64,000 nucleotides of DNA from assembly GCA_021234155.1 (NCBI GenBank), contig JAJEKV010000064.1, positions 5,456,001 to 5,520,000 of the forward strand, written 5' to 3'. The notes under the pieces were generated by a model. The model saw nothing but the letters and a program-made list of their open reading frames with translations, did not search any database and had not been told where the DNA came from. The number at the start of each line of letters is the position of its first letter. Position 1 is the stretch's first letter. Positions 8,467 to 31,380 of the stretch are shown piece by piece. Source of the stretch: Isoetes taiwanensis (lineage: Eukaryota > Streptophyta > Lycopodiopsida > Isoetales > Isoetaceae). The translations under genes were made by a program, and so were the position numbers.

Positions 8467-8950
8467 TAGAATTTGCTTGAAAAAGTAACCCTCTAACAGC
8501 AAAATATTGATCTGTTCCTGTAAAAACGATTAGTAATCATACAATCCCAGAGAAGACGCTTGAATGAAAGAAATATAATCTATAATTGCAGCCCGCCTGG
8601 TAAGCAAAGTCTGAAGCTCCAGAAGCCGACCTGGTAACAAAAGTCGAAGATCCAGAAGCCCTAAACCTTTGAAAGAATGGTGGCTTGTCTGCAAACAAAG
8701 AAGCAAATGAAATAGATTCAATCTTTGCCAAAAGAACATGCACCAAAGAAGGGCCTTATATTCTGAGAACGAACCTTAATTTGAGAGCAGCTCTGGAACT
8801 GACCTGGTAAGCAAGAATCGAAGCACTTAAAGGAAAATATCTGAATCTTATAAGCTTTACCTGGCCGATTCTTTTCATAGTCGAATACTCTACCCAGAGG
8901 AAAAGGAAAAAAAAAAAAAAAACTAGCAAAAAGGCGCAACAGGAGGCTTG
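8467..8950. other. Unassigned DNA between the LINE relic and the LTR element
   Basis: The sequence contains three imperfect copies of a cctggtaa(g)caa motif, near 8599, 8629 and 8800, each followed by gaagc-rich text. An A run of about 18 lies near 8908-8922. On the minus strand there is a possible exon ending in gcttaccagg. If the LTR element is removed, this DNA joins directly to 20952 and so could be the continuation of the Helitron 3' side. I could not find a CTRR end with a hairpin in it. Confidence 0.35.
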
Positions 8951-8955: not shown

Positions 8956-9278
8956 TGTGACGTTCCAGCACAGTATACGGTCTCAGGACGTATACTGTAC
9001 TGTCTCGTCACGCGTACACGCCACTCCAACTGACGTGTACGCCGAGGTGTGGCCAGGTGAGTAGCCCTAGGGGGCAACTTGCTAGGTATGTGCATTTCTT
9101 ATTAATGTGCACATGCACATTTATTAAGGTGCACACATTTCCATGTGGGCACATTTAGGTGCACACATTTCCATGTAGGCACATTTGGCCACCTAGCCAT
9201 TAAAGGCAAGTGGGCCCATTTCCAATTATCCCACATGCCTAAAGGGATAATTGGAAACCCTAAGCCCCAACCCTTGCC

Positions 9279-9286
9279 TATTTAAG
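9279..9286 (+). promoter_or_regulatory. Probable LTR TATA box TATTTAAG
   Basis: TATTTAAG follows cccttgcc about 320 bases into the LTR. The same sequence is at 19663-19670 in the other LTR. It is the best TATA-like element ahead of the conserved ctagggttttagagct stretch, which would then be the start of R. Confidence 0.45.
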
Positions 9287-9385
9287 TAGAAGAACCCTAA
9301 CTTGCCCATTTTCGTTCCTAGGGTTTTAGAGCTCTGTTTTGGCTGCTCTAGGAGTCAAAACCGCCTCCCGCACTGGCCCGAGAGA

Positions 9386-9466
9386 ATGGCACCATTAGTT
9401 TCCCTTGATTCGAAAGCAGTTCAAGAGGGATGGTCGAACTCGGTCGAGGAGCAACTCTTGGATCAG
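9386..9466 (+). other. Short LTR ORF running into a consensus splice donor
   Basis: An ATG at 9386 opens a 27-codon frame (begins MAPLVSLDSK) that runs into GATCAG|GTATGT, a near-perfect plant 5' splice site at 9466/9467. The 3' LTR keeps the ATG and the donor but has small indels in between. It could be a leader exon spliced to an interior acceptor. I could not identify the acceptor. Confidence 0.35.
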
Positions 9467-10565
9467 GTATGTAGTCGATTTAATGGTCTAAACCGTTTTT
9501 CCACCATTGTATCGAGGGTTTAGCCTATTAAATCGCCTTTAGCAGCTATCTAGATCTCTAGATGAGTAGATACCGACTCTAACTAAAGAACCTAACTCTA
9601 TGATATAGATTAGATCTATGTTCTTTAGTTCTTCTGTGATGTATATGGATGATGTATCTCTGTGAACTCCTTGTATTGGGAAGGGGGGTAGAGACTTCAA
9701 GCTTGGTAGTAGATGCTCCTAGATTAGCCTCTCTAGCACACCATAGATTCGGCCTGTGCACAAGAGCCACACCCGGTGGGTGAAGGGGCCGACCGGCTTA
9801 TAAGGAGGTTCGTGTTCGACTCTTGAACCATCCCTATGGTGTGTTAGTGCTACCGGGATCATTGTGACTAGGTCCAATGGCTTGCCACTGCGTGTGGGCA
9901 AGGCATGGGCTCGACACTCGTGAGGTGGTGGATATGACCTTCCATTGAGTTCAAGTCGAATACGGGCAAAGGGCCCTCTAGTCACCTTGAGTCAGCATGT
10001 AGATCTCGGAGGGAGTGATCCCTACCGCCCCCCATCGGAACCGGGAGATGAAACCCGTGAATAGCCCTTTGGCTATGCATCCCATGCTGGCTCTGATCCA
10101 GTCCCAACACTTTTCAGCCTACTCGCAAAGTGTGCACGTGAGGGGCGGATGGAGTGGACAACCCTATGCCATGTTCTTATGCCAGCCAAATCCATTGCCA
10201 TGAATTACATGCCCGCAATGAACTCGAGACCCAAGCCGCCGGGCCATCCCTTTGAGTCCGAGCCTTGGGTAGGATTCCCTATGTGATGTGCTGATCTTTG
10301 TCTATGCAGATATGTGGAGGACCATCCTTCGTGATGGTCATATGATGTTGATGTATGTACTAATCGACATGTATGTTCACGCCCGCAGCCTAGGTAGGCC
10401 CCGAGGGAGACAGGGGTAAAGGACCCTTCATTCTTCCCACTCGAACTCTTCAAGGTTGCAGTGATACGTGGAGGGCCCCTATATTAGCATGGAGCCGGTA
10501 TGGGGAATGAACTCTCTGTTTGTATACGGTGAGTGCAAAGTATATGAGTAGGGGACGCCACAAAG

Positions 10566-10579
10566 TGGTATCGAAAGCA
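10566..10579 (+). other. Primer binding site, initiator-Met tRNA type
   Basis: TGGTATCGAAAGCA begins four bases after the 5' LTR. It resembles the common plant PBS TGGTATCAGAGC, complementary to the 3' end of initiator-Met tRNA, with changes in the middle. Confidence 0.8.
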
Positions 10580-10736
10580 ATGTTCTTGGAGACCAAGAGC
10601 AAAGCACCGCCATGCTCCCAAAGTACTAACTTGATAGGATTCTCGAACCTCGAAAGTGGGAAATTTTTTCTCATTTTGTAGTTTATGCTAAGCTAGTAAC
10701 AGTTAAGTGGATTGGAATTTAATATTAGCACAGTTA

Positions 10737-11400
10737 GGTGAATTGGAACTTAATAAAACTAAAAAGAATGAGCCAGGTAAGGTGTGAGATAGGTGAATTG
10801 GAACTTAATAAAACTAAAAAGAATGAGCCAGGTAAGGTGGTCTCACAGCTCGCGCCTGGTTCAATAACTAAACTTTAAACTAAAAAGAATGAGCCAGGTA
10901 AGGTGGTCTCACAGCTCGCGCCTGGTTCAATAACTAAACTTTAGTACTAAACTTTAGTTTTGCGACGAGGCTCGCGCCTGGTTCAATAACTAAACTTTAA
11001 ACTAAAAAGAATGAGCCAGGTAAGGTGGTCTCACAGCTCGCGCCTGGTTCAATAACTAAACTTTAGTTTTGCGACAAGGCGCAAGCTGTGAGACTGGTTC
11101 AATAACTAAACTTTAGTTTTGCGACAAAGGCGCAAAAGCCGTCTCAAGCCGTGAGATCGGTGCGACGAGGCTCATACCGTTCAATAACTAAACTTTAAAC
11201 TAAAAAGAATGAGCCAGGTAAGGTGGTCTCACAGCTCGCGCCTGGTTCAATAACTAAACTTTAGTTTTGCGACAAGGCGCAAGCTGTGAGACTGGTTCAA
11301 TAACTAAACTTTAGTTTTGCGACAAGGCGCAAGCTGTGTCTCAAGCTGTGAGACTGGTTCAATAACTAAACTTTAGTTAGGCGCAAGCTGTAAGACATTG
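10737..11400 (+). repeat. Array of hairpin-forming tandem repeats inside the LTR element
   Basis: A complex tandem array is built from the blocks actaaaaagaatgagccagg, GTCTCACAGCTCGCGCCT, ggttcaataactaaac and AGGCGCAAGCTGTGAGAC. The second and last blocks are reverse complements apart from one base, so each full unit can fold into a stem of about 17 bp with a loop of roughly 30 bases. The left arm occurs about four times here and the right arm at least three times. Units are shuffled and partly deleted. Confidence 0.8.
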
Positions 11401-12185
11401 ATGAAAACAGCTTGAAAAGTTATAGAATTTAAAAAAGTAACTTGGTAATTCGTTGATGAAAACAGCTTGAAAAGTTATAGAATTTAAAAAAGTAACTTGG
11501 TAATTCGAATCTTAGCCTAGGATCTAGCTAGATTAGTCTAGTTTTTCAATCTCTTTGAACCTCATCTTAAAAGGATTCCCGCAGTGGCGAATTGAACCTC
11601 CCACCCACGTGGTTGAACCCCCAAACCCCCGTACAACCAATCGAGGGCGGGCATCGTTTACGTTTGAATTATAATTCTTAATTAGATTTAAGCTTTAATA
11701 ATGTTAGATAATATTAATGGCTAAGCCTTAGATTTAGAACCAAGGCCCTTAAGCTAGATAGAGACAAAGATCTCGATAGACACCAGGACTCTGGACGACA
11801 TGATGCGCACTAAAAAACGCATCACTCGACTTTCTCGACAAGGCTAAAACAGCCGAGGCCAAGGAGGCCGAAGGAAACAAGAAGAGGAGAGGACGAACGA
11901 GAGCGGAGGCCAAGGCTCAAAAAGCGGCAGAGCGTAAGCCGGTCCAACATTTTGAAGACTCAACACTGCTACTGCTCATGCTGGCGAGTAACCCTCATGA
12001 GGGAAGGCATGTAATTAGCTAGTTTAATTAAGGGAGATCCCCAGTAGATATGTTGTAAATAATCAATAATTTTGTTAATACATGATAATTTTGAGTAGTT
12101 TATGTGTCAAATCTTGCTTAATTAGGACGAGTTAGCAAGTAGTAGTTTTTATTTTAGTAAAATAGGATACTCTCAGACCAAAAAG
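11401..12185. other. LTR-element interior, non-coding
   Basis: A direct duplication of about 55 bases (core tgatgaaaacagcttgaaaagttatagaa) lies at 11399-11508. The rest has no supported coding frame. Confidence 0.5.
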
Positions 12186-12472
12186 TGTGATGTCTCACAG
12201 CTCGCGCCTTGTCAAGAAAATAAAGTTTAGTTTTTGAACGAGGCGCAACCTGTGAGACCTTCATACTTAGACCATGTCCAAACTAGACCAAAACACCTCC
12301 AAATTGACCAAGTAAGGGGTCCATTCTGCCTAACTCGATGAGACTAGCATGATTTGACCCTTAGATCACCCAAATTGGACACGTTTAACCCAATTTACAG
12401 CCAATGTCTCACAGCTCGCGCCTGGTCAAAGAACTAAACTTTAGTTTTTGAGCAGGGCGCAACCTGTGAGAC
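12186..12472 (+). repeat. Two dispersed copies of the array hairpin
   Basis: At 12189-12262 and 12406-12473 the same left arm (tgtctcacagctcgcgcc) and right arm (ggcgcaacctgtgagacc) recur, each around a loop containing taaa(g/c)tttagttttt. The loop and flanks differ from the array copies while the pairing arms are kept. Confidence 0.75.
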
Positions 12473-15400
12473 CTCCAAACTTTGAACCTCCATAACTTGA
12501 GCTACAGAGCTCCAAATCGTCTGAAAATTGTTGCAATAGGACCATTAGATAGCCTAGAATCCATTTATGACCTCAAATTAGGCTAGAAATGTCAAACCCT
12601 AGCTCAAATTAACCAAAATTGCCCAAACCCTTGAATTGTTCTTCCAAACTGTAGTTTGTTTGTAGATAGAAGCCTACCCCATTAGTAGCTCGCAAGTATT
12701 GCTCTCGGCTCGAAGCTGATACCTTACTCCTAGATAGAAGTGCCCAAGAACACCCCTTTGTTATAGTCATCTAGACCTCAAAGATAGCAACCCAAGTCCA
12801 ACTCAGGTTGCAGACATCACCTCTGCTCATGCCAAAGGCATAAACCTTGACCTAATTCTGTGTCCTTCTAATAGAGTTTGACTTATATAGCCGCCACATT
12901 GACACTCCCTATTGCCAGGGTACCTAGAAAGGAGCTAGAGTCTAGAACTGCCCAAGCCGCTCCATGTGTAGAGATTGGACTCCCCCCAAACCAACTTTGT
13001 TAGGACCTTAGGGTATGCCTCAAACATCATGGAGGTTTTGCAAAACAACCCTCATTTCATGCCATACCACACGTCCTAATATCCATAGACTTGTAGATTA
13101 TAGATATGTCTCCAAATCTTGCCGCCGAGCCACCTTGCTTGCTTATAGAGCCCGTATCGTTGTAGGAGAGCCCTTCAAGTAGACCTTAGACTCTAGGAAA
13201 TACGAAGTTGCTTTGCAGGCACGGGCCGAGCCACGTAAGAGCTTGAGGCGCAACTCCTTGAAGACATCAAGGTCCCAACGATGTACGCATGCATAAGGAG
13301 AGGAGACCGAAAAAGGCGCACCCAAGAGAGGGAAGCACAACGACAAACACCTCAACCGACAAACGAGTAGAACAGACACCACCGGCCTATCATCAATCTT
13401 CATCAAATGGGAAGAATAATTGGTAACCAACGGCATCAAGAATTTTCTAGGTGTCAACCTCCCGGCTACCACGACGAGGTCACATCGGAAGAGGATCTCG
13501 ACGCCACCAACTCGACGCCCACGAAGTTTCAAATGGAAGAATGCAAGGCAGCAAAATACAAAAGCGTGAACACGTTAGACATCGATGCCGCGTTAGCATC
13601 ACGAGCTAGGGTCAGAAGGCATAATCTTCCGCCGAGGGAGAAGTCATGGCAACACAGAGCGTATAAAAACCGGAGGGAAGACAACCACGACATTGCAGCC
13701 CAAAGAGCTCAAGCGAATGTCATGCAACGCCAACGAAAAGGAGTAACCAAGCTAGGCAACCACAAAGCACCTAGTAAGGCTGACCAAGATGAGCTTCTAG
13801 CTCCCTTTGCACCAGCAGGAGACCACGAGGGAGGAGACGATATCGGGAACATCTCCAACTTGAAGGCCTATATCAGCATTAGGGGCAAGATCAAGGAGGA
13901 GAATATTCGTCTTGAACAAAGAATTCGGGACCCGTAAACACCTAGAAACCAAAGGAAGGACGACCTTACTACGCCAGCCAAGGAGTGCGAGATTCGAATG
14001 GATAGGACCCAAAGGACCGGAGGAGACGACCTAGCCAGCAGATACAAATCATGCAAAGGCAACCGTAAGGAGCCATGGTAGGGACAATAGAAATGACCAC
14101 ACTTCCGTACATGTGAGAGAGGCACCTCCTAATGAAGCAAAGCCCAAGCAACAGAGTCGACTCGTAAATTCAACTCCGGAGGAATGCCAATGCCCGCCTA
14201 CGACCATGATCTCGAGAGCTTCAAGACATCCAAGAATGCCCAACCGCAACAGCCTAGGTGATCCTACTCAAGCGACCAATGGCACCAAGACATCCAAGAA
14301 CCCCGCAATGACACACCGCATGTAGGGACGCTGAGCGGTCACCGCATTCCTCACGACGAATATACATATTAAGGAGGAGCATCTTTCTCAAGGGATCACA
14401 TCGACAAACACTCTTCAAGAATCGGGCGGACGAGCTCCCGGATCAGACATGAAGCTCAACAATAGTAGCAAAGATCTCAAAGGAATCCCCGGAGTCAACC
14501 CGAACAAAGAAGATGCAAAGAAACCAAAGGGTCAAACGCGATAGGAGGAGGGGAAACCCTAAAGGAGTATAAACATTTAAGTAGATCTTCGTAGTTGTTT
14601 TGAAAAAAGTGGATGAATTAAAATCCCAATGTAAATGCGTATATGTCTATTGTATATCTCGGTGCTCACAGATACGGAGTGGAAAACATGAGTTTAGAGT
14701 CATGTTTTACTGGATTTAGCGCTTAGATCAGAAGCTCCTTCACTTCGACTACCAAAAGAGGAAGCATAGAAGCACAACTATAGCCCAAGATCAAAATGGA
14801 AGAGCAAGTACGAGGGAGAAACGACCGGGAGGCCAAGCAAACCTTCGACTCCAAACACTTCCTAGTGGCCCGGCGTAGAAGACAACTCGGCCCACCCAAT
14901 GTCGAGAATAAGAGATAATACCGGCCATGTCAAGATCATCACACCAGACGGGACATCGTCCAGACGCAACACTACATCTTGTGGCAGCAGAACACTTGAC
15001 TAACTTATGACACGAAAGGGCCTCAACAATAGAAGGAGGAACGCCTCACATCAACGAGCCAACTAAGAAGACAACATCTCGACGACCATAATTCCACCTT
15101 TGTGGTAATATAGGGGAATGCGCTTATGACACGGGGATTAGATGGAGATGCACTTACGAAAGGCACCGCGATGAGGAGATATGCCTTCAAGAACTAGGTG
15201 ATGGCTTCGCCGTACTCCTACCAAGAATTAGAAGAGAAGAAGCCGATCATATCTCCGACATGTGGCACGCCAAACGCCCAAGGTAGAAGCATTCGACACC
15301 TTAACGACAAGGATAGCAACTAAAGCACCTTCGGCAAAAAGAGAGTTCAAGATAATAGCCGCTATTCAACGACAAGAGCATATCTAAGGCGTGTACTTCT

Positions 15401-18400
15401 TCAACTCAAGGATCAAGCCGCTAGAGATATAAGGATCCATCATCCCGACAACATCGCCAAAGGAGAAGAGCCATGAAGCTTTACTTGCTAGAGAGGCCGA
15501 CATGCATAGAGAGACAAAGGTCGAACTGAAAGTCGGAGAAGTGCTAGCAACCGACTTCTTCCACGAAGCTCCCTAGAGGCAAATGAGGATCAAAACCGAC
15601 GAAAGCACAATCAAAGTCACCCGAGGGTACCTCAAGACAAGAAGACGCATAGCATGGCGGAACGTGACAATGTCCAAGCCATGTGATCGAGGGGAGCAAA
15701 CAAGGAAGATTAGAAGCTCGATGGAGAAGCATCTAGGCGAGGGCGAGCCGATGACTTGCACACGGACTTGCATGCAACTTGGTGAACCAAGGATGGACGA
15801 TTCAAAGAACAACCAAGTAGAAGAGAACAACCCGTGAGGAGTATAGCCAAAGGAATCGCAAGACACGACCTCAAGAGACGCCTCCAAATAGTTTCAAGTA
15901 TCAAAGGGAGGAACAATTACCGCCCAAAAACAGATCGTGAAGCGGGCAAACGTCGAAGCATCAACGACCACCACACACCTTTAATTAGAAAGTGATGCAA
16001 AGCGTGTTGTGCCATAGCCGACAAACATCTGAGGGCCCGGACATATCAACAAATTACCCCCTGAGTACGAAAGCCAACGTACAAATAGGAGGATATAGAT
16101 CGTCAACACCATTGCACCCGGAGGAACACCGATGACATCACCAAGGAGTAGGTGTGCAACTTGAAGGGAGGCACAAGGGAGACCTAATGGCTCTAGTGGT
16201 AATTGTAATTAGGTAAGCTATATGTTTTGCATGTATAGTTCCCTTTGTTATTCCTTCCTTCCCATAGCGCAATGCATCAAAGGAAGAGATGTCGGCAATT
16301 GCGGGGCGACAAAGAGGACTCAACGTATGAGACATCGATGGAGTCAAGAAACAATATCGGATCTGAGAGTCGCCCTTTAGCTGCCAAGACAAAGAGTTCA
16401 AGATGAAAGATCTTTTTCAACTACCCATCTTCGTGCTTTTGAAAAGCGGCATGGAAGATTCAAGTGATCAACTACACCATCAGGCCACCAAAGAATGAGA
16501 GCCTTCTAACGAACAAAGTCAACCTCTACATCAAAGAGGAGCCACCGTCAAGGAGACCAAGTATCGAAATTACTCGGAAGAACGCTACCTTGCTACTTCA
16601 AGCAGTAACGAAGTGGATGAGCTTCTAGCAAGCTCAAGGATCTAAGGCCATGGGGCCTAGTAGGTTAATGTATGGACTAACATCCATATTGGGATTAAAA
16701 GGCATTTCCGTGATATTCCGCTAAAGGATTGCCCCAATATTGAGCTAAGCGTCAAGGATTGGGAAGGAAATGCATAGGAGTAACTATAATTATACACGAT
16801 TGTTAACGCACATCCAACGTATTGAAACCACTTGGTGAGATTGATCTCCTCGCTAAGAAGGAATCATTACTAGGATAATTGTTAACCATGTATAAATCTA
16901 GTACCTCCAAGAATAATCCAACCGAAAAGAAAAGAAGTAATCTAACAAGTCCGCCAACTTGTTACGATGACATCAATTCGATTGGTAGGAATATTCCAAG
17001 AGCTAAATAACTAAGAAAGGGGAATCTCTAGAATATAAAAGAATAATACATGCAAGGTACATCTAAAATAAGAATTATAGTAATCAAATAGTCTTTTTGA
17101 GACAAAAGGAATTGTCATGATGACAAAACCTTGTGGTTTAGAATCGCTTCTAACTAAGTAAGTAACCCATAGCTATATTGAAATAAATGATAACATAATA
17201 TGTGCATCCATCTTAGATGGTTATATATGTTAGCTAAGGCTAGTAAATTAATGTGCTAAGTAAGAAGCATATAACCTCTTAAGGGAGAGAATAGATATGA
17301 TGTTGTGTACAACGCATTGAAGGGGTGCGGAGACCATTTTCTTTTTGAAGAAAGTGGGAGGGCTCAATCTTATGATTGAACGTGCTTGCATCGAATTGAT
17401 TGACCCAGAATAGAGTTCACTCCGCAAATGGCGGCTTAATAGAGCGCAAGATAGATAGATAGATAGCTCGAGGGTCTTCAACGTGCGAGACTGACGCAGT
17501 AGCTATCTACACCAATGAAGTGGAGCAAAAACTATGGGAGCAATGCAACGACCAAGTCATCTCCAAATTACTCGACGCCGGCTCAATGGGTGGATGCATT
17601 CTAGCCTAGGTAAGGCGTACGCATGCATTATAAGCTTTAATGTGTCTTATAAATAAGTTAAATATAGATCCTAATAATTGCATGGAATTACTGTACGTAT
17701 ATGTATCATACGGAAATAAGTTAAATAACAACGATAATGTGAGGTAGCATGTTAATTAATCCTTCGCAAGGATGCAATTCCTTCCAAGGATAGCCATATG
17801 ACCTTGGGGTCCTTATAAATATAGATAGAAAATAGAATTCAAATATACTTAAGTGCATCTTAGGGATATACTTCCAAGGGTAATGCAGGACCCAAGGAAG
17901 AGAATAAGAAGCACATCTAATTCTTGTGTATGATAATTAAAACCTTGTCTATGTAACAATAGGTCTAAAATCGGGGTTATTGTTCAAATAATCGCGATCT
18001 AAAAGTCGTTAAATATTGCAAAGCTTAGAGTAAATATAATTGTACCATCTAAGTAATGTATCCTGGTGTACTATGATAATGTTAATTCATAAATATTACC
18101 TTAGGGTAATTATGTTAATCACATGCATTAAAGGAGCCAAAGAAAAATCGGCTCGGGCATGTCGCTTTGTGTGTAGATTAAATGCTTGTATAGTTAAGAT
18201 TAATCTACGCATGCAACCTATGCTAGGTAGGGGTTGCATGCGTTGTTACCGATGATGAGACCACTACAGTGATCTCTAGGGCGTGGTGTAATGTCAATGT
18301 AGGCATGACCGCGTTTCCGCTTGGACGAGTGGAAGGTAGATTAGAAAGTCTACTGGTCCCACCCGCGAGTAGACGACCTCGAGAGAAAGGAGGTCATTCA

Positions 18401-18700
18401 GAATGCATTGATAGGAAAGGCACCTTTAGCCCCATATATGCTTTGATAGGAGGAAGCTATCCTTCACGCCCCACGCCGAAGGATATCCTCCACGCCGGGC
18501 AACTAGAGGTGTAGGCATGAGCGCATATAGGCATATAGGCCGCCTCCACGCCATAATGGAAGATTCACCCTCTTCCTAACGGAGATTTAGCCATGCATCC
18601 ATGTAGATAGGTGGGGTGGTCACCATATAACCAAAATTTTATTAATAATTAAAATAGTAATAACGTGGGTCGACCTGCAGGCCAAAAGAGCTCCGAGGGC
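12473..18700. other. LTR-element interior, no recognised gene
   Basis: From about 13,150 to 16,600 the plus strand is purine-rich and codes for no protein I recognise. The longest frame, 13407-13937 (176 codons, from ATG), is rich in R, K, E and Q, but its motifs are not gag-, RT- or integrase-like. It could be decayed gag or plain composition. An (ATAG)4 microsatellite is at 17451-17467. Confidence 0.45.
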
Positions 18701-18716
18701 AAGGAGGTCGAAGACG

Positions 18717-19240
18717 AAAACTTGCAAACACAAATTTAGTCATAATGTGTTGCAAGGGATGAAGAGTACCTTAGAAGTGTAAATTTTGTATGAAATTGAT
18801 AAACTTTGATAAACTTAAATGTTGTGTTAAGTAAGGTTAATAATTACCTTGCGTAGATTAAGTTATGAAGTGATAAGTTAATTGGGTAATGAAATAGTAC
18901 AAAGAATGTCTTAAACATTACCTTAGAGTAATTCTAATAATTAAGATAGTAAGTATGTAATTATAGATATTGTAAAATTAATGCAGGATTTTAAGGTGCG
19001 AGGACTTGCAACACAAATTTTGTTTGAATGTGTTGCAAGGAATGAAGAGTACCTTAAATAATAATTGTATATGAAAGTGTTAAATTGTGATAAACTAAAT
19101 GTTATAATAACGAGGACTAATAAGTACCCCGCTTAATAGAAGTTACTTAATTGACAAGTTATTTGATAATGTAATGGCGTAATAATAATTTAAAAATATT
19201 ACCTTAAGGTAATCTTAATAAATGTGTAAGTATAATAGTA
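18717..19240 (+). repeat. Degenerate tandem duplication near the 3' LTR
   Basis: Two diverged copies of about 270 bases share gcaa(ac)acaaattt, tgtgttgcaagg(g/a)atgaag, agtacctta, tgataaact and taccttA(a/g)(a/g)gtaat. A third partial match (attaccttagggtaatta) lies at 18097-18115. Confidence 0.6.
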
Positions 19241-19323
19241 GTATATCGTATGCATCGTGGTTGATTGCGGGTTAGGAAGATTCCAAGGTGGGGACCCCCG
19301 ATGTCGCTGACAAAGATCATTTC

Positions 19324-19334
19324 AAGGTGGAGAA
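19324..19334 (+). other. Polypurine tract
   Basis: AAGGTGGAGAA abuts the first base of the 3' LTR. Its position and composition fit the plus-strand primer site of plant LTR retrotransposons. One T interrupts the purines. Confidence 0.8.
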
Positions 19335-20946
19335 TGTGGCGTTCCAAACACGAAGATACGGTCTCGGGACGATAATCGTCTTGTCTTAATCGCCGCATTA
19401 CCCACCCAACCGACGCGGTAATCTGCGCCGACGTGTAGCCAGTGAGTAGCCCTAGGGGCAACTTGCTAGGTATGTGCATTTCTTATTAATGTGCACATGC
19501 ACATTTATTAAGGTGCACACATTTCCATGTGGGCACATTTAGGTGCACACATTTCCATGTAGGCACATTTGGCCACCTAGCCATTAAAGGCAAGTGGGCC
19601 CATTTCCAATTATCCCACATGCCTAAAGGGATAATTGGAAACCCTAAGCCCCAACCCTTGCCTATTTAAGTAGAAGAACCCTAACTTGCCCATTTTCGTT
19701 CCTAGGGTTTTAGAGCTCGCTTTGGCTGCTCTAGGAGTCAAAACCGCCTCCCGGACTGCCCCAGAGAATGGCACCATTAGTTTCCCTTGATTCGAAAGCA
19801 GTTCAAGGGATGGTCGAACTCGGTCCGAGGAGCAACTCTTGGATCAGGTATGTAGTCGATTTAATGGTCTAAACCGTTTTCCAGTCATTGTATCAGTAGG
19901 TTTAGCCTATTAAATCGCCTTTAGCAGCTATCTAGATCTCTAGATGAGTAGATACTAGACTCTAACTAAAGAACCTAACTCTATGATATAGATTAGATCT
20001 ATGTTCTTTAGTTCTTCTGTGATGTATATGGATGATGTATCTCTGTGAACTCCTTGTATTGGGAAGGGGGGTAGAGACTTCAAGCTTGGTAGTAGATGCT
20101 CCTAGATTAGCCTCTCTAGCACACCATAGATTCGCCTTTAGGCACAAGAGCCACACACGGTTGTGGGTGAAGGGGCCGACCGGGCTTATAAGGAGGTTCG
20201 TGTTCTGACTCTTGAACGATCCCTATGGTGTGTTAGTGCTACCGGGGATCATTGTGACTAGGTCCAATGGCTTGCCACTGCGTGTGGGCAAGGCATGGGC
20301 TCGACACTCGTGAGGTGGTGGATATGACCTTCCATTGAGTTCAAGTCGAATACGGGCAGTGGCCCTCTAGTCACCTTGAGTCAGCATGTAGATCTGAGGG
20401 AGTGATCCCTACCGCCCCATCGAACCGGGGAGATGAAACCCGTGAATAGCCCTTTTGGCTATGCATCCCATGGGCTACTGCCGAGTCCCAACACTTTTCA
20501 GCCTACTCGCAAAAGTGTGCACGGGAGGGGCGGATGGAGTGGACAACCCTATGCCATGTTCTTATGCCGCCCAAATCCATTGCCATGAATTCTGCGCCCA
20601 ATGAACTCAACGGAGACCCAAGCCGTCAGTCATCCCTTTGAGTCTGAGCCTTGGGTAGGATTCCCTATGTGATGTGCTGATCTTTGTCTATGCAGATATG
20701 TGGAGGACCATCCTTCGTGATGGTCATATGATGTTGATGTATGTACTACTGACATGTATGTTCACGCTTCCGCAGCTAGGTAGGCCCTGAGGGAGACAGG
20801 GTAAAGGACCCCTTCATTCTTCCCACTGGAACTCTTCAAGGTTGCAGTGATACGTGGAGGGCCCTATATTAGCATGGAGCTGGTATGGGGGATGAACTCC
20901 TGTTTGTATACGGTGAGTGCACCGTATATGAGTAGGGGACGTCACA
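19335..20946 (+). repeat. 3' LTR
   Basis: The LTR starts TGTGGCG and ends CGTCACA, and aligns with 8956-10562. Each LTR has one mutated base in the ancestral TGTGACG...CGTCACA inverted repeat, at opposite ends. GGCAG follows at 20947-20951. Confidence 0.92.
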
Positions 20947-21139: not shown

Positions 21140-22449
21140 TTAGATTTTGTTTCTCTTTTTGAGAAACCAATACTTTTTTGTTTTGGATGGGTTGGCTAGT
21201 AAATTGTTGTAGCCCGTAGTGGTGGTTTCTTGTTGTTGGATTATTTCTTTTTCTAATTGGTTTGCTTTTTGTTTGTTGGTGGTTGTGTGAAGGAGTTGAA
21301 TCTCGAAATGATCATGGAATGGTTTGTAGGTGGCAATATCTTGGGACATCTTTTTGTTCGGCGTTGTTTGATGACGACGTAATCGTGCCTTGACGTTTGT
21401 AGTTTGGCCTATATAGGTTTTGTCGTTTTGTTTGCACCGGATCGAGTATATCGTTATTAACTTGCCTGTTCTCGAGAAAGAAACATTTCAATGATTTGAT
21501 GTTTCTAATAATTGTTTATTGTAATAGCACTTGCTTTTAATTGTTTATTTCAAATATTGTTATTGTTTTTGTTGTTGATTGTCAAAATTGTTTTCCGTTC
21601 ATGATATAAAACTCAAACTTGTCAAAAGTTTAGGAAAAATAAGAAAGTGATGATGTTTATTTACTTTTTATTGGCGGGTCCGGATAAAAATCTATATTTC
21701 CAAAGAGCTCGACCGCCAGGGTTTTGTCAATTGTGTAAGTTACTTTTTCAATCGTTAGTGGATGACTGTCTGATGAATGGGTGTGGTCGTATAGGGACAT
21801 CAGTTTTTGCATCATGGTCTGTGCCGTTTTCTTGGATAGAGATGTTAGAGCATCAATGGAGACGTTGTATCCGTAGTGTAATATGCTCGCCTGGTATGGA
21901 TTTATTGATGTGGAGGTGGTTGAGTTGCAGGCTGTCGCTAGCGCCAGTGCGCCTTGTGATTTGGTAAGGGTCGAGTAGTCAAGGTCGGCGTTTCTTTGGC
22001 GAAGTATATGCTTGAGTAGACCTGCACGAGTTATAGATCCTGGTTAGTTCAATATTACACACGTGGAAGTTAAGTTGTTTGAGTGCAAAAAACCTTCAGC
22101 AGGGGGTTCTTTGTGTTGCTCCTCGAACTTGATTTTTTCATCTTTTGCCTTGTTTCTAAATTCGTCTAGTTCCTCCTGTGTTTGCCATCCGTGAACGTAA
22201 TCTCGCGGTTCTACTCCGCATAGGTTCATGTATCTCATCGTTGAACTCGTCAAGGTCAAGGTTGTTGATTTTGACGTGGATGATTTCTTTTTTTTGGCGA
22301 CTTCTTCTTTCTTGATTTCGTCAAAAAAAACTTTCCAGACCTGCGCAAGAGGAGTTGTTATTGTCTTGAATGATTGTTGGTGTATTGGGGTTATGTTGGC
22401 TTACCTCGCTTGTTTGTGCTCGCTTCTTGTTTCTAGTTTGGTGATCCAT
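21140..22449 (-). CDS. Helitron-linked protein with C-terminal GIY-YIG nuclease domain (spliced)
   Basis: My model has four exons: 22449-22405, 22340-22094, 22039-21665 and 21465-21140. Phases agree and give 330 residues with no internal stop. The first intron (64 bp) has GAG|GTAAGC and GCGCAG|GTC sites. The second (54 bp) removes an in-frame TAA but is short and its donor is weak. The third (199 bp) has AA|GTAAAT and AACAG|GC. Residues 20-45 are lysine-rich. Residues 100-140 (RAGLLKHILRQ, then LTKSQ) faintly resemble a SAP-like helix pair. The C-terminus has IYSI (Y229), TYIG (Y240-G242), ARLRRH (R250) and QLEKEII (E294), the GIY-YIG order with its Arg and Glu. The fold is expected to nick or cut DNA. 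The gene is on the same strand as the Helitron helicase and starts 82 bases after it. It could be an accessory transposition protein or a captured gene. Confidence 0.6.
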
Positions 22450-22530
22450 GTTGATGCTGTCACCTGCATGCATATTGTTAGACAATTGAAGTTTTATAGT
22501 GTGCTGCAACTTTTTTTGTTGTTTTGATTA

Positions 22531-23955
22531 CTATATCAGTGTCTTGTTGGGTTGGAAGTCATGTATAGTGATGGGTTTGACTATTCTCAGTTGAGAACGC
22601 TTCTTGACTCTTGATAGCATGACGTAGAGAAGGCCTGGTGAGAAGGCTTTTCTCACTACAATTATAGCATTGCCATCTATTGTGCCACCTTGTGACTTGT
22701 GGGCAGTCATCGCGTAACACAAGGCCAATGGGAAGGTTTTTTTGTAATAATATTGTCCATTGTGGTACTTGTGTTCAACCTTTGTCCTCCTTAGTTCGAC
22801 GTATTGCAAGCTATCATTGACATGGCATATTATTGATTTAACTTTGCTTGTGTTTGCGTGGACGTCGATGTATGCAACTATGCCAGTTGTTCCATTTGCT
22901 AGTGACGATGAAATGTCAATGTTTGATGTTATCATCACCTTGCAACCCACTGCAATGCAAGGTAGTTCTTGGAATGTTGGTTCTGCAAGCCATGCTTCCA
23001 ACCCATTGATTCCTGTTGCATTTGTTTCTATCTCAACTGGAATGATTTGAATTGGTTGAAATAATTTGTGCATGGTGTAGTTGTTGAAGAAGTTGACATC
23101 TTCATGGTGGGTACATAGGACAATGGTGTTTTGGTCGATGCATGTTAGAGCAGCATTTTGTTCAACAATTGTGTCTTTTAGGGTGTCGAGGAGTTCTTTC
23201 TCGGTTGGATGTCTGAATCTTATGATGTTTAAAAATTCAGAATATTCGATGTCATTTGAGTGCCGTATTGATGTTTGGAGATGGTATTTCTTTGCTTGTT
23301 GGAAGTGTAAGGAGTTTGACAATGGGCAAGTAGCACAAGTAGAATTCTTTTGTTTTTTATGACGACAAATTGGTGGCAATTGGGCGTGGTCTCCAACTAG
23401 TATGATGCACCTGGTAGCAATTATTTCTTGTATGGGGGTGCGTGTAACCTCAGAGACTTGTCGAAGTATCATGTTTAATGTAATGGTGGTTAGCATGGAC
23501 ATTTCATCAACTATTAGTGCATCAAAAGTGTTTATTTGTTGGTATCTTATGTCTGTTCTTTGTATGGTGTGGGGCCACTGGTTCCTTGTGGGGATTGCGA
23601 ATTGATGATGTACTGTCACTGCCTGTCTTGATATTCTGCAGGCTGCTATGCCAGTAGTTGCAGTGACAATGGGTCGTTTCCCTATTTGAATGTAGTGTCG
23701 TAGCAAGTGTTTGATCAAAAATGTTTTGCCTGAGCCTGGTGCTCCTGATAGAACGTGGATGCCTGTAGGAACATTGCATAATACTGAGAACACGATTTCT
23801 TGTTCGGATGTTAATGTGCTGTTATGTATCTCTGAGAAGTTGTCTTTGAAGTAAGTTTGAGGTAAGTTGTCTTGTTCTTCTATGTTGGGTGACGTCGTTG
23901 TGTGGTCTAGCAATGGATTTAGCCTTTGCAAGATGCCATTCAAAATCTGTGTTTG
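22531..23955 (-). CDS. Helitron helicase part (PIF1 family), downstream of an in-frame TAG
   Basis: This is the C-terminal half of the Helitron Rep-helicase, which unwinds DNA during rolling-circle transposition. About 474 residues follow the stop and end at TAG 22531-22533. Visible motifs are Walker A GAPGSGKT, TATTGIAA, Walker B DEMSM, GDHAQLPP, TSIRH, MTAHKSQGGT and VMLSRVKK, which together cover SF1B motifs I to VI. Nothing in the helicase core looks broken. The frame is the same as the upstream Rep part and there is no ATG near its beginning. It is therefore best seen as the second half of one protein rather than a separate gene, reached by readthrough or, in an intact relative, by a sense codon. 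PIF1 is the family, not a claim that this is the host PIF1 gene. Confidence 0.9.
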   Translation of the reverse strand, partial: QTQILNGILQRLNPLLDHTTTSPNIEEQDNLPQTYFKDNFSEIHNSTLTSEQEIVFSVLCNVPTGIHVLSGAPGSGKTFLIKHLLRHYIQIGKRPIVTATTGIAACRISRQAVTVHHQFAIPTRNQWPHTIQRTDIRYQQINTFDALIVDEMSMLTTITLNMILRQVSEVTRTPIQEIIATRCIILVGDHAQLPPICRHKKQKNSTCATCPLSNSLHFQQAKKYHLQTSIRHSNDIEYSEFLNIIRFRHPTEKELLDTLKDTIVEQNAALTCIDQNTIVLCTHHEDVNFFNNYTMHKLFQPIQIIPVEIETNATGINGLEAWLAEPTFQELPCIAVGCKVMITSNIDISSSLANGTTGIVAYIDVHANTSKVKSIICHVNDSLQYVELRRTKVEHKYHNGQYYYKKTFPLALCYAMTAHKSQGGTIDGNAIIVVRKAFSPGLLYVMLSRVKKRSQLRIVKPITIHDFQPNKTLI

Positions 23956-26535
23956 CTACTCGCTTTGTAGTAGGTGGTATTCGGTGTACTTCTGGATGTA
24001 TTGCAGGATGTCGTCATCGTTGTTTATAAGCCCGCGGATTTGGCATTCTATAAAATAGCATGATTTGGAATTTTGGCTTGATATCAGATGATTTTCTTGG
24101 GTAAATGGCACTTCTGCTAATAGAATGTTATAGAAGAACCCCTCAAAGTGATGCAATGGATGGTAGTCTGTAAAGCGAACTATATTTTTTGATGGTATAA
24201 TTTTATTGCCATAGTTGTCGATGCCAATGGCATCTAGTCTGTAGCTTTTCGGCGCAAGTTGGTATTTTTTCCAATATTCTTTGAATGTTATTTGTTGAAA
24301 GCTTTGAGGTCTAGCACAATAGAGGTCAACAGGATGTAAAGTTGCTGTAGATCCTTTTGACACAATTCTTTGTCGTGATGATGGAGGTGATGTGTCTATA
24401 TATTGTACTTTTTCTGATCTTTGTATGGATGGGATCTGTAGGCATGTTAGTGTTGCTTCTGTAGCCGAGATTGGCTTTGTCAGTAGCATAGCAGAGATAA
24501 TTTTGCACTTTGTGTCATCAAGGTTGGTTATGCCTAGTTTTCTTATATCGTCAATGTTCAAGACGAGGTTGCCGTACGGTTCACACTTCATGGCATACTT
24601 TAGCAAGTAGTAGGACCAGCATCCATCTGTTACTCTTTGAATATTCATGTGTGCTCCCCATAAAGACAATATAGTGGGATGGTATGGCACAATGCGCTCA
24701 TGTTGGATCCCAGGTCTATGGTATATCCAACGTTGGTTTTGTTGGTCAAGTTCAGCTGTAGCAGAGTAATGTGGAGGGAAAGGAAATCCATACTTGCATT
24801 GCTTTACATGAGAGTACTTGTAACATGATGGTCTACATGTATGGATTTGTTTTTGCAACACAAGGCCTTGCAATCTCTGTGAAAAGTAATCAGTACTTGC
24901 ATTTGGAATGACGGCATCTATCTCATTCGTTACTCTATCAATATCTTGACATGATACCCAGAGGACAATATGGGCATGCAATGAATGCCTATTTTGAACT
25001 TCGTATCTCAAAACATAATGGAGAACATTGCCAATTATTCCGTTTTCACAAAGTATGTAATTTTTTAGGAACATTTGCATCCTAACATGGAACAACACTG
25101 CGCATTCAACTGGGCAATCTGCCCAGGTTAATGTTTCATCAATCTCTTTAATGATTTTTTCAATATCAGATATCTCCGTCCACCTTGTGCTGCTCACCTC
25201 GTCTGCAGTTAGTGTGAGGAAGAATGATGGAATTCCCCAGTATTCTACCATAGCTAACATGTCTTTAAGGTGCTTTCTATGCCATGACGGTGAGTTTGGG
25301 ATTGTTTTTGGCACTATGAATTTAAGCACATGACGTAGACAATCTTCTTCACTGGAGGCTGGGTGTGTCCTCCTATATTCTATCATGTCCTTTTCCAAAC
25401 AACATCTATTTAGTGACCTTGCTATAAGAGAAGCTTGTCTGACCTGGTACATCATTAGGAGATATGGTTTGTACAAAGTGTATACTGAGAACATACAGCT
25501 GATTCTTTGCTTTAAGTATTCAAATATGCCTTCCTTCTCATCATAGCTTCCAGTACCATGTGGAAATAAAAAAGGGAACATGCACATCTCTAATGTCAAT
25601 GGCAAGTCAGATACTCTGTTGTCTATTGTTGTACCAGTCAATGTCATATATCTCGCGACTTGTGTTAGATTGCCCCCATCTCTCTTTGACAATGTCGGGA
25701 GCTCGTACATCTCATGTTTTGAGAAAGTGTCTGATGACCCATTTTGTGTTACATCTTCCAATATTGAAAATCCCCTTGTGTTTGCTGTCTCCATTGCAAT
25801 GTATGGTCTTGTAACAGCATATTGGTCAGCAATTTTTTGTATTACATTGACAGACATGATACTTATTCCGGTTGTTGGATTTGGTCTTTCATACAGTGTT
25901 AGGAATTTTTTCACAAAAGGATTGTGCACCAATAGGTATCCCAATAAAGATCGTATGCTCGCTTCATGGTTGGCATCCATTGGAAGATCAATCATGTCAC
26001 CCCATGCCATGAGTGGGTTTTCTAGCAATGATCTGTTGCAATGAGTTCCAAATGCAATGCTATTATATTTCTTCACTACAATGGATACATCGACGAGCGA
26101 CAACATTTGTGTGTAAAAGATGGGAAGCATCAAGAGTTGACGGATGTACGCTGGACTAAACGATGAGTTGCGGTTGGATCGCCTTGGATTTTTATTGCAA
26201 CTTGAGCATACTTTGCAGCAGAGCCCATTTCTTATCAAGTAATGGTAAAGGAAAGGATTGCATATGCTGAGGGCAGGCACATCGTCAGTTAGGGGTTCCC
26301 ATGGATCTGGTTCAAATACCCATGCGTTGTAATATGAAGTATTGCTGCATATGCCACAAACGTGGAGTGAATGCACTGTTTTTGTGGTGATTCCACTCCA
26401 ACTTTCATGGTATTTGGTTATTTCTAGCCATGAGTCTGCGCTTGGTTGTAGATGTATCTTTCTAAGTTTTCGTCTGTTTTCTTTTGCATTAAGACACTTG
26501 CGTTTCATGGCTATTTTTTTGGAACTAGTGGCCAT
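23956..26535 (-). CDS. Helitron Rep (HUH endonuclease) part
   Basis: A frame of 859 residues from ATG 26535 (context gcagacaATGGCC) to TAG 23958-23956. Four codons, and then the helicase, follow in the same frame. The first ~120 residues have Cys pairs (CGIC, CCKVCSSC) typical of the N-terminal zinc-finger region. The Rep nickase has FFLTLTADE near residue 440, the metal-binding HAH near 520 (RHSLHAHIVLW) and YYLLKYAMK near 642-650 with the paired tyrosines of Y2 HUH enzymes. A Cys-rich stretch, CRPSCYKYSHVKQCKYGFP, lies near 567-585. The protein would nick and join Helitron ends. Apart from the terminal TAG the frame is uninterrupted, so the copy is young or selected. Confidence 0.92.
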   Translation of the reverse strand: MATSSKKIAMKRKCLNAKENRRKLRKIHLQPSADSWLEITKYHESWSGITTKTVHSLHVCGICSNTSYYNAWVFEPDPWEPLTDDVPALSICNPFLYHYLIRNGLCCKVCSSCNKNPRRSNRNSSFSPAYIRQLLMLPIFYTQMLSLVDVSIVVKKYNSIAFGTHCNRSLLENPLMAWGDMIDLPMDANHEASIRSLLGYLLVHNPFVKKFLTLYERPNPTTGISIMSVNVIQKIADQYAVTRPYIAMETANTRGFSILEDVTQNGSSDTFSKHEMYELPTLSKRDGGNLTQVARYMTLTGTTIDNRVSDLPLTLEMCMFPFLFPHGTGSYDEKEGIFEYLKQRISCMFSVYTLYKPYLLMMYQVRQASLIARSLNRCCLEKDMIEYRRTHPASSEEDCLRHVLKFIVPKTIPNSPSWHRKHLKDMLAMVEYWGIPSFFLTLTADEVSSTRWTEISDIEKIIKEIDETLTWADCPVECAVLFHVRMQMFLKNYILCENGIIGNVLHYVLRYEVQNRHSLHAHIVLWVSCQDIDRVTNEIDAVIPNASTDYFSQRLQGLVLQKQIHTCRPSCYKYSHVKQCKYGFPFPPHYSATAELDQQNQRWIYHRPGIQHERIVPYHPTILSLWGAHMNIQRVTDGCWSYYLLKYAMKCEPYGNLVLNIDDIRKLGITNLDDTKCKIISAMLLTKPISATEATLTCLQIPSIQRSEKVQYIDTSPPSSRQRIVSKGSTATLHPVDLYCARPQSFQQITFKEYWKKYQLAPKSYRLDAIGIDNYGNKIIPSKNIVRFTDYHPLHHFEGFFYNILLAEVPFTQENHLISSQNSKSCYFIECQIRGLINNDDDILQYIQKYTEYHLLQSE

Positions 26536-26762
26536 TGTCTGCAATGAACTATGGAATCTATTATTTTTTATTTATTTTTTTAACTATATACATATAATGA
26601 CATTATTATGTTTAGGAAGGAAGGTTTCTTCTTTTCACAACATACCTTGAACGCTTCAAGTCCAATGAAGACAATAGGTATAGAATCTGAAAAATTACAT
26701 TTACGTTTGCAATTACAAAAATGTTTAATACTATTACTCATATATTACTCGTTGATCTCTCA

Positions 26763-26785
26763 TTCTCATTCTCATTCTCATTCTT
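26763..26785 (+). repeat. (CATTCT)n microsatellite
   Basis: About four units of CATTCT lie in the 5' untranslated part of the Helitron. A similar run is at 48265-48287. Confidence 0.85.
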
Positions 26786-26879
26786 AAAATTCTAAATATG
26801 ATGTTCATTAAGGTTGATGATTATATTCATGTGAATTTAGTTAAGGTTCATTGAAATTCTAAAAGTCCAATATGAAAAT

Positions 26880-27121
26880 ATGTATTTTAAAAAAAACATC
26901 TTGCGAGTACAATGAAACTAGCATTTTTCAAAGCCATTAACAAGAGGCGTGCCAAAAATGCTATGTTGGTGACACAAAACTGTAAATCGAACGAAGCAAA
27001 ATAAAAGAAAAAAATCGACGGCTAAAATCGCGCACAGACTATCACAAAACGGCTTTATTATTATATATATAGATGTATTTTAAAAAAAACATCTTGCGAG
27101 TACAATGAAACTAGCATTTTT
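26880..27121 (+). repeat. 49-bp direct repeat around the Helitron 5' end
   Basis: The sequence from atgtattttaaaaaaaacat to ctagcattttt (49 bases) occurs at 26880-26928 and at 27073-27121. The second copy starts at the Helitron 5' terminus. The 144 bases between them contain the terminal TCTATATA... sequence. This looks like a partial tandem duplication of 193 bases or a nested 5' end. Confidence 0.8.
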
Positions 27122-29463: not shown

Positions 29464-31380
29464 TTGATTGGAACGGCTTCACACATGCTGTTTCATCGAT
29501 TTAGCATGTTGGTGTGGTGATTTATGCCCATGGAACTGTATTAGTAGCAAAACTCATTTTATAAATGGAATGATCCCATTTGAAATTGAGAAAAACATTT
29601 CTCTCTATTCTTTACCTAAAAAAGGCACTTACCAATATAAGGATCAGGATGTATCTTTTTCGCTAATTCTGCCTCCCCTGATAGTACAATCCTCCCTATT
29701 GTTCTCAAATCATTCTAGAACAAGTTGAAGGAAATTTTATAAGAATAACCGAATGGCAAAAGAAACAGGTTAAATCAAAGGCATCTTAAAGCAAATACAG
29801 AATGGCAAAAGAAACAGGTTAAACCAAAGGGCCGATTAAGTCATAAATTTGCTCAAACGAACAAGAGAGGAAAGAACAAAACAATCATGGTCTGAAGGCG
29901 ACAAGGGATATAGATTCCAAACAAATAGAATCAGATTGATGATGAAGAAGTATAAAGCGGGGGTTTTCGGCTTCGCTTCTGGGGAGGGAATCATAATCTA
30001 AAATGTAAATGAGAAGGCATTAAATGCTCTGAGAAACAAGCAGCTATGGTGAACAAAACGGATTAGCCCAAGGTCTCAGTCTTACTAGTAAGGATCGGAT
30101 TCAAAGAATGCTAATTGACGAATGCTAACAAAACAGTTCAGAGGACGAATTGTCAGATTTAAAGGGAAAACTTATCATGGAATTGTACCTCCAACTCTAG
30201 ACGAAGAACGAAAATGCCAGACGACCGACTACCTTCCTTCAAATCAAGGCGACGGTTCCCTATAGCAATAAGAAAGCTAATTTCGCTGGCCCTTCGTTTT
30301 ATTAGATCAACATCGAATGGTTTAAAATAGGTCCAGCTCATTTTTCATGACACGTGGATAGGCTAAGGTTCGAGATAATGTGTCGCCCGAGGTTAGGCTG
30401 TTGCGCTAAAAAAAAAGAGAGAGAGAGATGGTTACTGACGGAAACATGGATGGATTTAAACTCCAAACCCTTAATCATGGATGGGGAGGAATTTCCCAGA
30501 GGGCCGTAAAGATTATTGTTCTTGTATGTGCTGCAAGAACTATTATTAGTTCTTATTTTGCTGGAGCATGGCAACGGAAGGAAGAGGAGATTATCATTTT
30601 GGAGATCACAAGAAGATATTTGGATTATCCTAATGGAGTAAAGGCCTTTATACATGAAGGGAAATCATATGATTTCAATATTAGAGCAGTTAATGGAACT
30701 GAGATGGATTTGGTGACTATTGTTGCAAGCGAATCTGAAGCATCAGTAGCAGAGAAAACTCGGTGCTTTTGTGGAGAATGCTCGAAGTATATGGACCGAC
30801 TTGTTGTGAACGAGTTCGGATTATTGGGGAAACTTCTATGATCCTTTGGGGATTATGGAATAATAAGGGTGACTGCTAGGTTGTCGTGGAAAAGCTTGTC
30901 ATGGAGACAAATAGCTTGTCATGGAGACAAGTAAACCACTGTTGCAAAACATTGAGCTCTGCTTTGTCATAATAGCCAAACTACCCGCCATAACCTCTTG
31001 CCATCTCTAGAAGTTCATCTTGGTCATTTGAGCCTGCGTAAATTCCAACTTTTAAGCCTGAGTATGGAGAACTGCAAAAGCATCCCGCTTGGGATTGCGG
31101 AGTCAGATCGTGGTGATCTGAGAGACTAATTCGTCATGGCGGTCATCTATATAAATATTTGACTTGGGAAGTCATCTATATTAACACTTGAACTTATTTG
31201 CAGGTTTGCTTAGTGTTAAGCATTGGGGAGGACACTTTACGTAAAAGCTGTCAAGGATGTGGACGCAAAATTTGGATGCGGAATCTCAAATTGTTTCCTA
31301 TGGGACAGGCTTATGGGTAAAGTTCCTAAGTTGAATTTCTTTATTTGGAATAAAGGATAGATACTTTTGTGTATACCCAT
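29464..31380. other. Intergenic DNA, no supported gene
   Basis: A frame at 30428-30841 (137 codons) has no motif I know. A small direct repeat (aatggcaaaagaaacaggtt) lies at 29752 and 29802. Otherwise nothing stands out. Confidence 0.4.

Follow-up and report, generated by a model that had tools for sequence, protein, structure and literature searches.

The 64,000-nt stretch of Isoetes taiwanensis DNA analysed here, which we call the window, carries on its minus strand a Helitron whose Rep-helicase (RepHel) gene is followed by an accessory gene, predicted to be spliced from four exons, with a GIY-YIG nuclease domain at the end of its product. We read it, with a probability of about 0.72, as a Helitron2-like lineage whose autonomous form encodes, besides RepHel, a second protein from a gene of its own, predicted to be spliced; this protein combines an N-terminal domain with the GIY-YIG domain and would aid transposition by an extra cut. 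That the accessory gene is an integral gene of the element seems to us close to certain, and its product probably acts in transposition; that it makes the target cut in particular is a far more tentative proposal. An earlier note on this DNA, made from its letters, had proposed a Helitron carrying a linked, spliced GIY-YIG gene, and this view is supported once three details are corrected: where the element begins and ends, how long the protein is and to which class the element belongs.

Linkage of the GIY-YIG gene to one Rep lineage

In the genome (1.658 Gb in 1110 contigs), the GIY-YIG profile PF01541 had at least 121 matches (best 150 of 263 candidates scored) and the Rep had at least 69 (best 52 of 975 candidates scored), the latter merging into 47 loci. 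At 24 of these 47 loci, the window included, a PF01541 match lies no more than 15 kb downstream on the same strand; by our own estimate, based on at least 121 matches in 1.66 Gb, chance would produce such pairs at about 0.03 loci. One of the 24 matches, 11 kb off at C1064, may belong to a neighbour. When any side and strand are counted, a GIY-YIG match is found near 26 of the 47 loci, and one further locus (C995) has the accessory exons with the GIY-YIG exon broken by a frameshift, which gives 27 of 47 in total. Among canonical Helitrons, taken as the best 150 of 1813 PF14214 candidates, not a single one had a GIY-YIG match within 15 kb and one had a match within 30 kb. Examination at the DNA level of 28 of the at least 121 GIY-YIG matches revealed that all 28 are exon 4 of the accessory gene. 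Six of the GIY-YIG loci have no Rep match nearby (L001, L005, L008, L047, L048 and L049), and even there the same Helitron 3′ ends adjoin, the end being altered in L001. The earlier note had named repeated finds of the ORF apart from Helitron sequence as a result that would tell against the linkage, and these loci are no such case.

These figures bear on the possibility that a Penelope-like element or a host gene merely happens to lie beside a Helitron. GIY-YIG domains of eukaryotic transposons have mostly been described in Penelope-like elements (PMC5718144, PMC9033089, PMC12910113; these and the other papers cited are drawn on as excerpts), which makes such an origin worth considering. It is highly improbable: a Penelope origin and chance neighbourhood are ruled out by the 24 same-strand downstream pairs, the empty canonical set, the 3′ ends common to the copies and a GIY-YIG exon lying between both ends of one element (L048, described below), and a host gene by the repeated copies at transposon ends. 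Neither a reverse transcriptase nor a Mariner transposase was found in the five window ORFs scanned with Pfam.

Organization of the accessory gene

The earlier note had placed a four-exon gene after the Rep-helicase on the same strand, and this layout is right, exons 2 to 4 being conserved in distant copies; with revised exon boundaries the predicted protein has 324 residues, not 330 (Table 1). Six aligned family copies retain the exons and most of the splice sites; the intron 2 acceptor is altered in L001 and L002, both of which are decayed. Exon 1 has a counterpart in L041, and L044 has one that is harder to recognize. From these comparisons we infer that the accessory gene is spliced into four exons. 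The Rep and helicase frame of the window is split by a single stop codon, and in other copies the two parts are uninterrupted in a single frame of, for example, 1352 and 1388 amino acids. Residues H532, H534, Y655 and Y659 are invariant in the Rep alignment (27 rows).

Table 1. Features of the Helitron, and of the retrotransposon nested in it, by position in the window
Feature	Positions	Strand	Remarks
Helitron 5′ terminus	30371..30416	-	T-run 30416-30408; element start 30407 (AGCGCAACAGCCTAACC...); its inverted repeat spans 30406-30398 (GCGCAACAG)
Rep part of RepHel (HUH Rep, H-x-H and Y-x3-Y)	23956..26571	-	PF14214 Helitron_like_N, E=3.9e-24; in-frame stop at end
PIF1-type helicase part of RepHel	22531..23955	-	PF05970, E=3.5e-21; same frame as Rep, after the stop
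Accessory exon 1	22405..22449	-	15 residues, basic; start codon and donor site in 5/5 family rows that reach exon 1
Accessory exon 2	22094..22340	-	N-terminal domain, first part; present in lineages A-E
Accessory exon 3	21665..22021	-	N-terminal domain, second part; present in lineages A-E
Accessory exon 4	21140..21465	-	GIY-YIG nuclease domain and stop; PF01541, E=5.2e-14
LTR retrotransposon nested in Helitron 3′ end, not part of the Helitron	8956..20946	-	12 kb; target-site duplication CTGCC (5 bp), 20951-20947 and 8955-8951
Helitron 3′ terminus	8921..8950	-	inverted repeat CTGTTGCGC at 8942-8934; CCTTTTTGCTAG ends at 8923 (TT to 8921); then T-run

The nuclease domain

The ORF at 21140-21487 on the minus strand scored 52.7 bits against PF01541 (cut-off 22.6), and the GIY-YIG signature that the earlier note had pointed out at the C-terminus was borne out by this profile. 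In an alignment of 13 rows, which leaves out L001, L007 and L047 (the last with a stop codon), the I-Y and Y-I-G motifs, the His, the Glu and a GYNN motif are invariant and the Arg is nearly so, being replaced in L045 only. The Y..YIG motif, the Arg and the Glu correspond to the active site of GIY-YIG enzymes, the Glu being taken as catalytic. The predicted model of the domain (pLDDT 82) has I-TevI (1mk0) as its nearest fold, with a probability of 1.00, TM scores of 0.62/0.73, an rmsd of 1.9 Å and a Foldseek E of just 5.5e-3. Profile, conserved active site and fold all place the domain in the GIY-YIG nuclease superfamily. In a viral library, the named best matches were GIY-YIG proteins of a chlorovirus and of phages; all 13 alignment rows matched PHROG homing endonucleases (best 3.6e-18), and a group I intron endonuclease model was matched, below cut-off, by both of the two rows scanned. 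Because of these matches and of the I-TevI fold, the catalytic domain is of the homing-endonuclease, I-TevI kind. It resembles I-TevI, Seg and the group I intron GIY-YIG endonucleases in fold, active-site residues and profile matches, and differs from them in its N-terminal domain, in being carried by a eukaryotic transposon and in being encoded by a spliced gene.

Such a kinship raises the question of whether the gene is a selfish passenger, either a free-standing homing-type endonuclease or captured cargo, that brings no benefit to Helitron transposition. The nearest relatives of the domain are indeed phage and group I intron homing endonucleases, the Helitron of the window seems to carry PPR-like fragments as well, and Helitrons capture genes readily (PMC6431247). 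The comparison of lineages below makes this idea unlikely.

The N-terminal domain and its fern relative

The earlier note found nothing recognizable in the N-terminal 220 residues or so; this stands as far as Pfam is concerned, no family scoring above its cut-off over the roughly 216 residues, and fails for one fern protein. The tail of P0034, a RepHel-containing gene model of a fern, is homologous to exons 2 and 3, with pairwise BLAST E values of 1e-8 against the window, 3e-10 against C1033 and 3e-4 against C941, and it is the sole significant match to the exon 2-3 profile among 51 Rep relatives (E 5.6e-16; the next 0.16). A GIY-YIG match within the same protein occurs in none of these 51 relatives, a count of protein data in which a separate neighbouring GIY-YIG exon would not show. 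The structure model of exons 2 and 3 is poor (mean pLDDT 51). A database of 5.8 billion proteins yielded 5439 candidates for the accessory alignment, none at E<=0.01, and a single candidate but no relative for the GIY-YIG ORF; scans of viral contigs with P0002 and with alignment A1 gave no match.

Five lineages, their trees and selection

The Rep loci examined fall into five lineages, A (to which the window belongs), B, C, D and E, and outside A the Rep is about 37-64% identical to that of the window. Exons 2, 3 and 4 were found in all five, and the intron between exons 2 and 3 occupies the same codon and phase in A, C and E, the three lineages compared. In lineages A to D, the accessory gene lies downstream of RepHel on the same strand, and in E (C1053, C1027, C1018 and C995) its place is upstream of Rep, on the opposite strand and in divergent orientation. 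When RepHel and accessory trees were built from 19 paired copies, they had an identical unrooted order of lineages: the grouping of B with D is supported at 97/97 in the RepHel tree and 81/81 in the accessory tree, and the split of A, B and D from C and E at 100/100 and 99/98, respectively. Two five-lineage trees agree by chance once in 15. In these sequence trees the accessory gene has diverged together with RepHel across all five lineages, the one with the gene on the other strand included. With canonical plant Helitrons as the root, a quick tree united the five lineages in one clade (SH-aLRT 100), with two proteins of the fern Adiantum nelumboides as its sister (support 96). P0034, with its N-terminal domain beside RepHel, belongs to this sister branch.

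Between the window and its two closest copies, exon 2 had dN/dS values of 0.03 and 0.08, exon 3 had 0.09 with either copy and exon 4 had 0.15 and 0.35; the helicase gave 0.12 and 0.46, and Rep gave 0.13 (one copy with a whole Rep). Values rise to about 0.5 in more decayed copies of the family. Between lineages, the proportion of synonymous differences is mostly near saturation (0.57-0.95), with non-synonymous values that range from 0.26 to 0.41 in the exons and from 0.26 to 0.46 in Rep. Close copies of the accessory gene thus show purifying selection at the sequence level. A selfish passenger fits poorly with a gene that codiverges with RepHel over five lineages, that is retained despite a changed layout, and whose closest copies show stronger purifying selection on exons 2 and 3 than on the GIY-YIG domain; the 150 best-scoring canonical Helitrons without any such neighbour within 15 kb and the N-terminal domain found beside RepHel in a fern speak against it as well.

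Element ends and insertion sites

The borders proposed in the earlier note, 27073 for the 5′ end and the GIY-YIG ORF for the 3′ end, both had to be moved. A 5′ end at 27073 is ruled out by upstream DNA common to the copies and by the terminus at 30407, and the 3′ end really lies at about 8921, an LTR retrotransposon being nested inside the element. The LTR blocks of this retrotransposon are 92-100% alike, and a relative of it occurs in the Helitron copy C908:6581488.

At the 5′ end, a T-run is followed by AGCGCAACAG in A or AGCACACCAG in B; inverted, these motifs recur close to the 3′ ends as CTGTTGCGC and CTGGTGTGC. The elements have short asymmetric terminal inverted repeats, GCGCAACAG/CTGTTGCGC in A and GCACACCAG/CTGGTGTGC in B, which change between A and B at matching places on both sides, as would be expected if the 5′ and 3′ repeats pair. 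A like motif follows a T-run in the window, L033, L038 (the same place as L033), L048 and L049; in L026 it follows TTTTTG, where just six bases precede the end, so that no differing flank is visible. The 5′ terminus of the window matches L026 over 42 bp (E=3.7e-11), and of 43 other matches to a query starting 13 bases before the 5′ end, 29 set in at one of its first 12 bases, a common start that supports the end at 30407, short of proof of a sharp border. A search for inverted repeats by 9-mers gave four matches in three of ten upstream stretches. One match, in the window, is the 5′ end, although two matches in an upstream stretch of such length are about the chance level; the remaining ones led nowhere. 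No 5′ ends were found for C, D and E.

On the 3′ side, the A copies share DNA through ...CTGTTGCGCCTTTTTGCTAG(TT) and then diverge, and the ends of B (...GCCTCTTGCTAG), C (...GCTTTTGACTAG) and D (...GCCTTTTTGCTAG) lie about 100-350 bp past the GIY-YIG stop. The exact CTAG end was found in 18 of 25 3′ regions of lineages A to D, is altered in two (L001 and L007) and was not seen in five (L039, L059, L061, L065 and L066). In lineage E, similarity stops 628 bp after the GIY-YIG exon in L044 and L045, and sooner in L046, with no recognizable element end. Past the end, at least three of the first four bases are T in 15 of 17 flanks. Over the 12 bases after CTAG (17 ends), the T fraction is 0.80 versus 0.31 in the loci, with a maximum of 0.44 in 2000 random draws; leaving out the two bases that possibly belong to the element lowers it, on a count by hand, to about 0.77.

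One insertion is L048 (C1063, 900-5649), a 4.7-kb element with both ends and a GIY-YIG exon and with no match to RepHel or to exons 2 and 3. It splits a (TTTTTTC)n microsatellite, the left flank ending in CTTTTT and the right one beginning with TC after CTAGTT; on our reading of these junctions, the repeat unit would be restored if TT belongs to the element. By coordinates, the GIY-YIG match also lies between both ends at C1078 (5′ match 2851648, GIY-YIG 2857900, 3′ motif 2858393) and at C1030 (3963883, 3966149 and 3966708, respectively). In the sequences of these copies, as in the window, the GIY-YIG exon lies inside the element ends.

Several further observations concern the ends and their surroundings. 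A lineage-B-like 3′ end (GCCTTCTGGTGTGCTTTTTGCTAATT with a T-rich flank) at about 39620-39660 on the plus strand of the window suggests that the end of a second related Helitron is present. In L049, L060 and L001, another 5′-end-like motif (AGCACACCAG or AGCAGG.TTGCCTAACC) occurs past the 3′ end and T-run, as if elements insert side by side. Short PPR-like frames at 28975-29216 (plus strand), in a 5′ region of the window Helitron that is partly common to C1079 and C1078, are perhaps captured gene fragments. Elsewhere in the window, at 58056-58780, two adjoining units of about 400 bp have blocks that are 90-92% alike.

Class of the element and comparison with known systems

Sequence features point to a Helitron2-like rather than a canonical element. 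Helitron-5_SMo is presumably, judging by its suffix, an element of Selaginella. It is among the Helitron2 examples of PMC3627910, and Helitron2 as a whole has asymmetric terminal inverted repeats, an oligo-T target and a variable orientation of RepHel (PMC3627910, PMC5148889). The element described here shares with Helitron2 an HUH Rep with two Tyr joined to a PIF1 helicase, short asymmetric inverted repeats of which the 5′ one is strictly terminal, insertion at T-rich sites and a RepHel orientation that varies, and differs in its spliced GIY-YIG gene and its 3′ CTAG(TT). In Helitron2, 20-30 bp separate the 3′ repeat from the end, a hairpin follows the repeat, and insertion occurs between TTTT and T or C (PMC3627910); here the 3′ repeat lies about 11-13 bp from the end (in A, 11 bp before the end of CTAG), and hairpins are weak or unseen, no stable one lying between the 3′ repeat and the end. 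On folding, the 5′ end of L048 gave -3.8 kcal/mol (z -1.3), and the ends of the window and of the L049 type did no better than shuffles. We use the term Helitron2-like, and no closer one, since the 3′ repeat is placed differently, the hairpins are weak and Helitron2 was compared by its description, the RepHel tree only separating the lineage from canonical plant RepHel.

Canonical Helitrons (Helitron1), and Helraiser (PDB 7lcc), have in common with this element the Rep and PIF1 helicase and a 3′ CTRR, here CTAG, and the Rep part matches Helraiser at E=2.8e-8. Unlike them, it has no 5′ TC and no insertion between A and T, a T-run followed by AGCGC or AGCAC standing in their place, and it has an oligo-T target, inverted repeats and a Rep distant from canonical plant Reps. 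The proto-Helentron of Phytophthora infestans likewise has a RepHel without a fused endonuclease and a 3′ CTAG; it inserts between A and T, and the excerpts of its description mention no GIY-YIG gene (PMC4067079).

Helentrons combine a Rep-helicase with an added endonuclease and a poly-T target (PMC4067079), as is the case here, where in A to D the addition follows the helicase. The Helentron nuclease is an apurinic (AP) endonuclease (Exo_Endo_phos) fused to RepHel, whereas here a GIY-YIG domain is encoded by a separate gene, and Pfam showed no fused AP endonuclease in the Rep ORF or, among the best 25 of 27 families, in the helicase ORF. In our view, the GIY-YIG nuclease was for this reason recruited independently of the Helentron AP endonuclease. 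GIY-YIG domains are likewise known from Penelope-like elements (PMC5718144), from rotifer Terminons, which hold them together with Rep ORFs (PMC6431247), and from one Mariner element, PGv-1 (PMC3627910); in contrast to all of these, the partner here is RepHel. A full-text search, with subscription journals and Repbase reports outside its scope, found no account that joins GIY-YIG to a Helitron in the text it covered, and we found no prior description of such an addition to this class of transposon.

A proposed role in transposition

By analogy with the family, Rep would nick the element and the helicase would peel off the transposed strand, and the accessory protein, guided by its N-terminal domain, would add an extra cut from which transposition benefits. 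Our first choice for this cut is a nick of the oligo-T target by the GIY-YIG domain, as has been proposed for the Helentron AP endonuclease, which would cleave between the T's of a poly-T target (PMC4067079); the second is a cut that would release or resolve a branched or circular intermediate. That the nuclease acts on the intermediate (circle release, second strand or branched joint) instead of the target is a reading that we rate as less likely than not. Some GIY-YIG enzymes, Slx1 for one, cleave branched DNA, and Slx1 chains do appear weakly among the fold matches, but the nearest fold is that of I-TevI, a site-specific duplex cutter. The T-run target could be explained without the nuclease, Helitron2 targeting TTTT anyway (PMC3627910).

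Several points weigh against a nuclease that serves transposition as part of the autonomous element. The Helitron2 of Chlamydomonas also inserts after TTTT, and the excerpts of its description mention no GIY-YIG gene (PMC3627910), so that a T-run target need not depend on GIY-YIG. The fern protein P0034 has the N-terminal domain without a GIY-YIG domain, the 5.8 billion proteins searched hold no relative of the accessory protein, and the GIY-YIG form is known from one genome only. The GIY-YIG exon is kept without an exon 2-3 match at four loci (L005, L008, L048 and L049), and several copies of the accessory gene are decayed, as expected of old transposon copies. In the accessory tree, the support for B with D is just 81/81 and the long branches of C and E meet (a treekit warning), and in the Rep tree two of the E rows are long and oddly composed.

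A last point of this kind concerns the 20 Rep loci, out of 47, that lack a GIY-YIG match in reach; most of them are partial Rep matches, and most are known by their matches, with flanks of 1.5 kb at most. The earlier note had singled out Helitron copies lacking the ORF as a finding that would count against it; the exon lies near 27 of the 47 loci, and four of the 20 others were examined further. At C974, similarity to sister copies ends about 150-170 bp past RepHel; at C908:6581488, an LTR element related to that of the window abuts the helicase end; and at C1103 and C1076, the accessory gene was not found in the 5 kb downstream, the side searched. Exon 2-3 remnants remain at C1044. There is no clear intact copy without the accessory gene among the four loci, which does not disprove the existence of such copies.

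Implications for Helitron biology

To our knowledge, the mechanism by which Helitrons open their target and complete the second strand is not settled. A separate nuclease with a conserved active site, kept with RepHel through deep divergence, would offer a direct handle on these steps of transposition. There is also a parallel to Helentrons, in which a different nuclease has been added to a Rep-helicase with a similar oligo-T target, and the two systems can be compared. It is conceivable, although we would put it at slightly under even odds, that rolling-circle transposons recruited a second nuclease at least twice, that the GIY-YIG protein belongs permanently to the transposition machinery and makes a cut, in target or intermediate, that Rep alone makes poorly, and that the N-terminal domain predates the split from the fern elements. 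For genome annotation, the consequence is that a part of the GIY-YIG genes of lycophytes, and perhaps of ferns, may belong to transposons.

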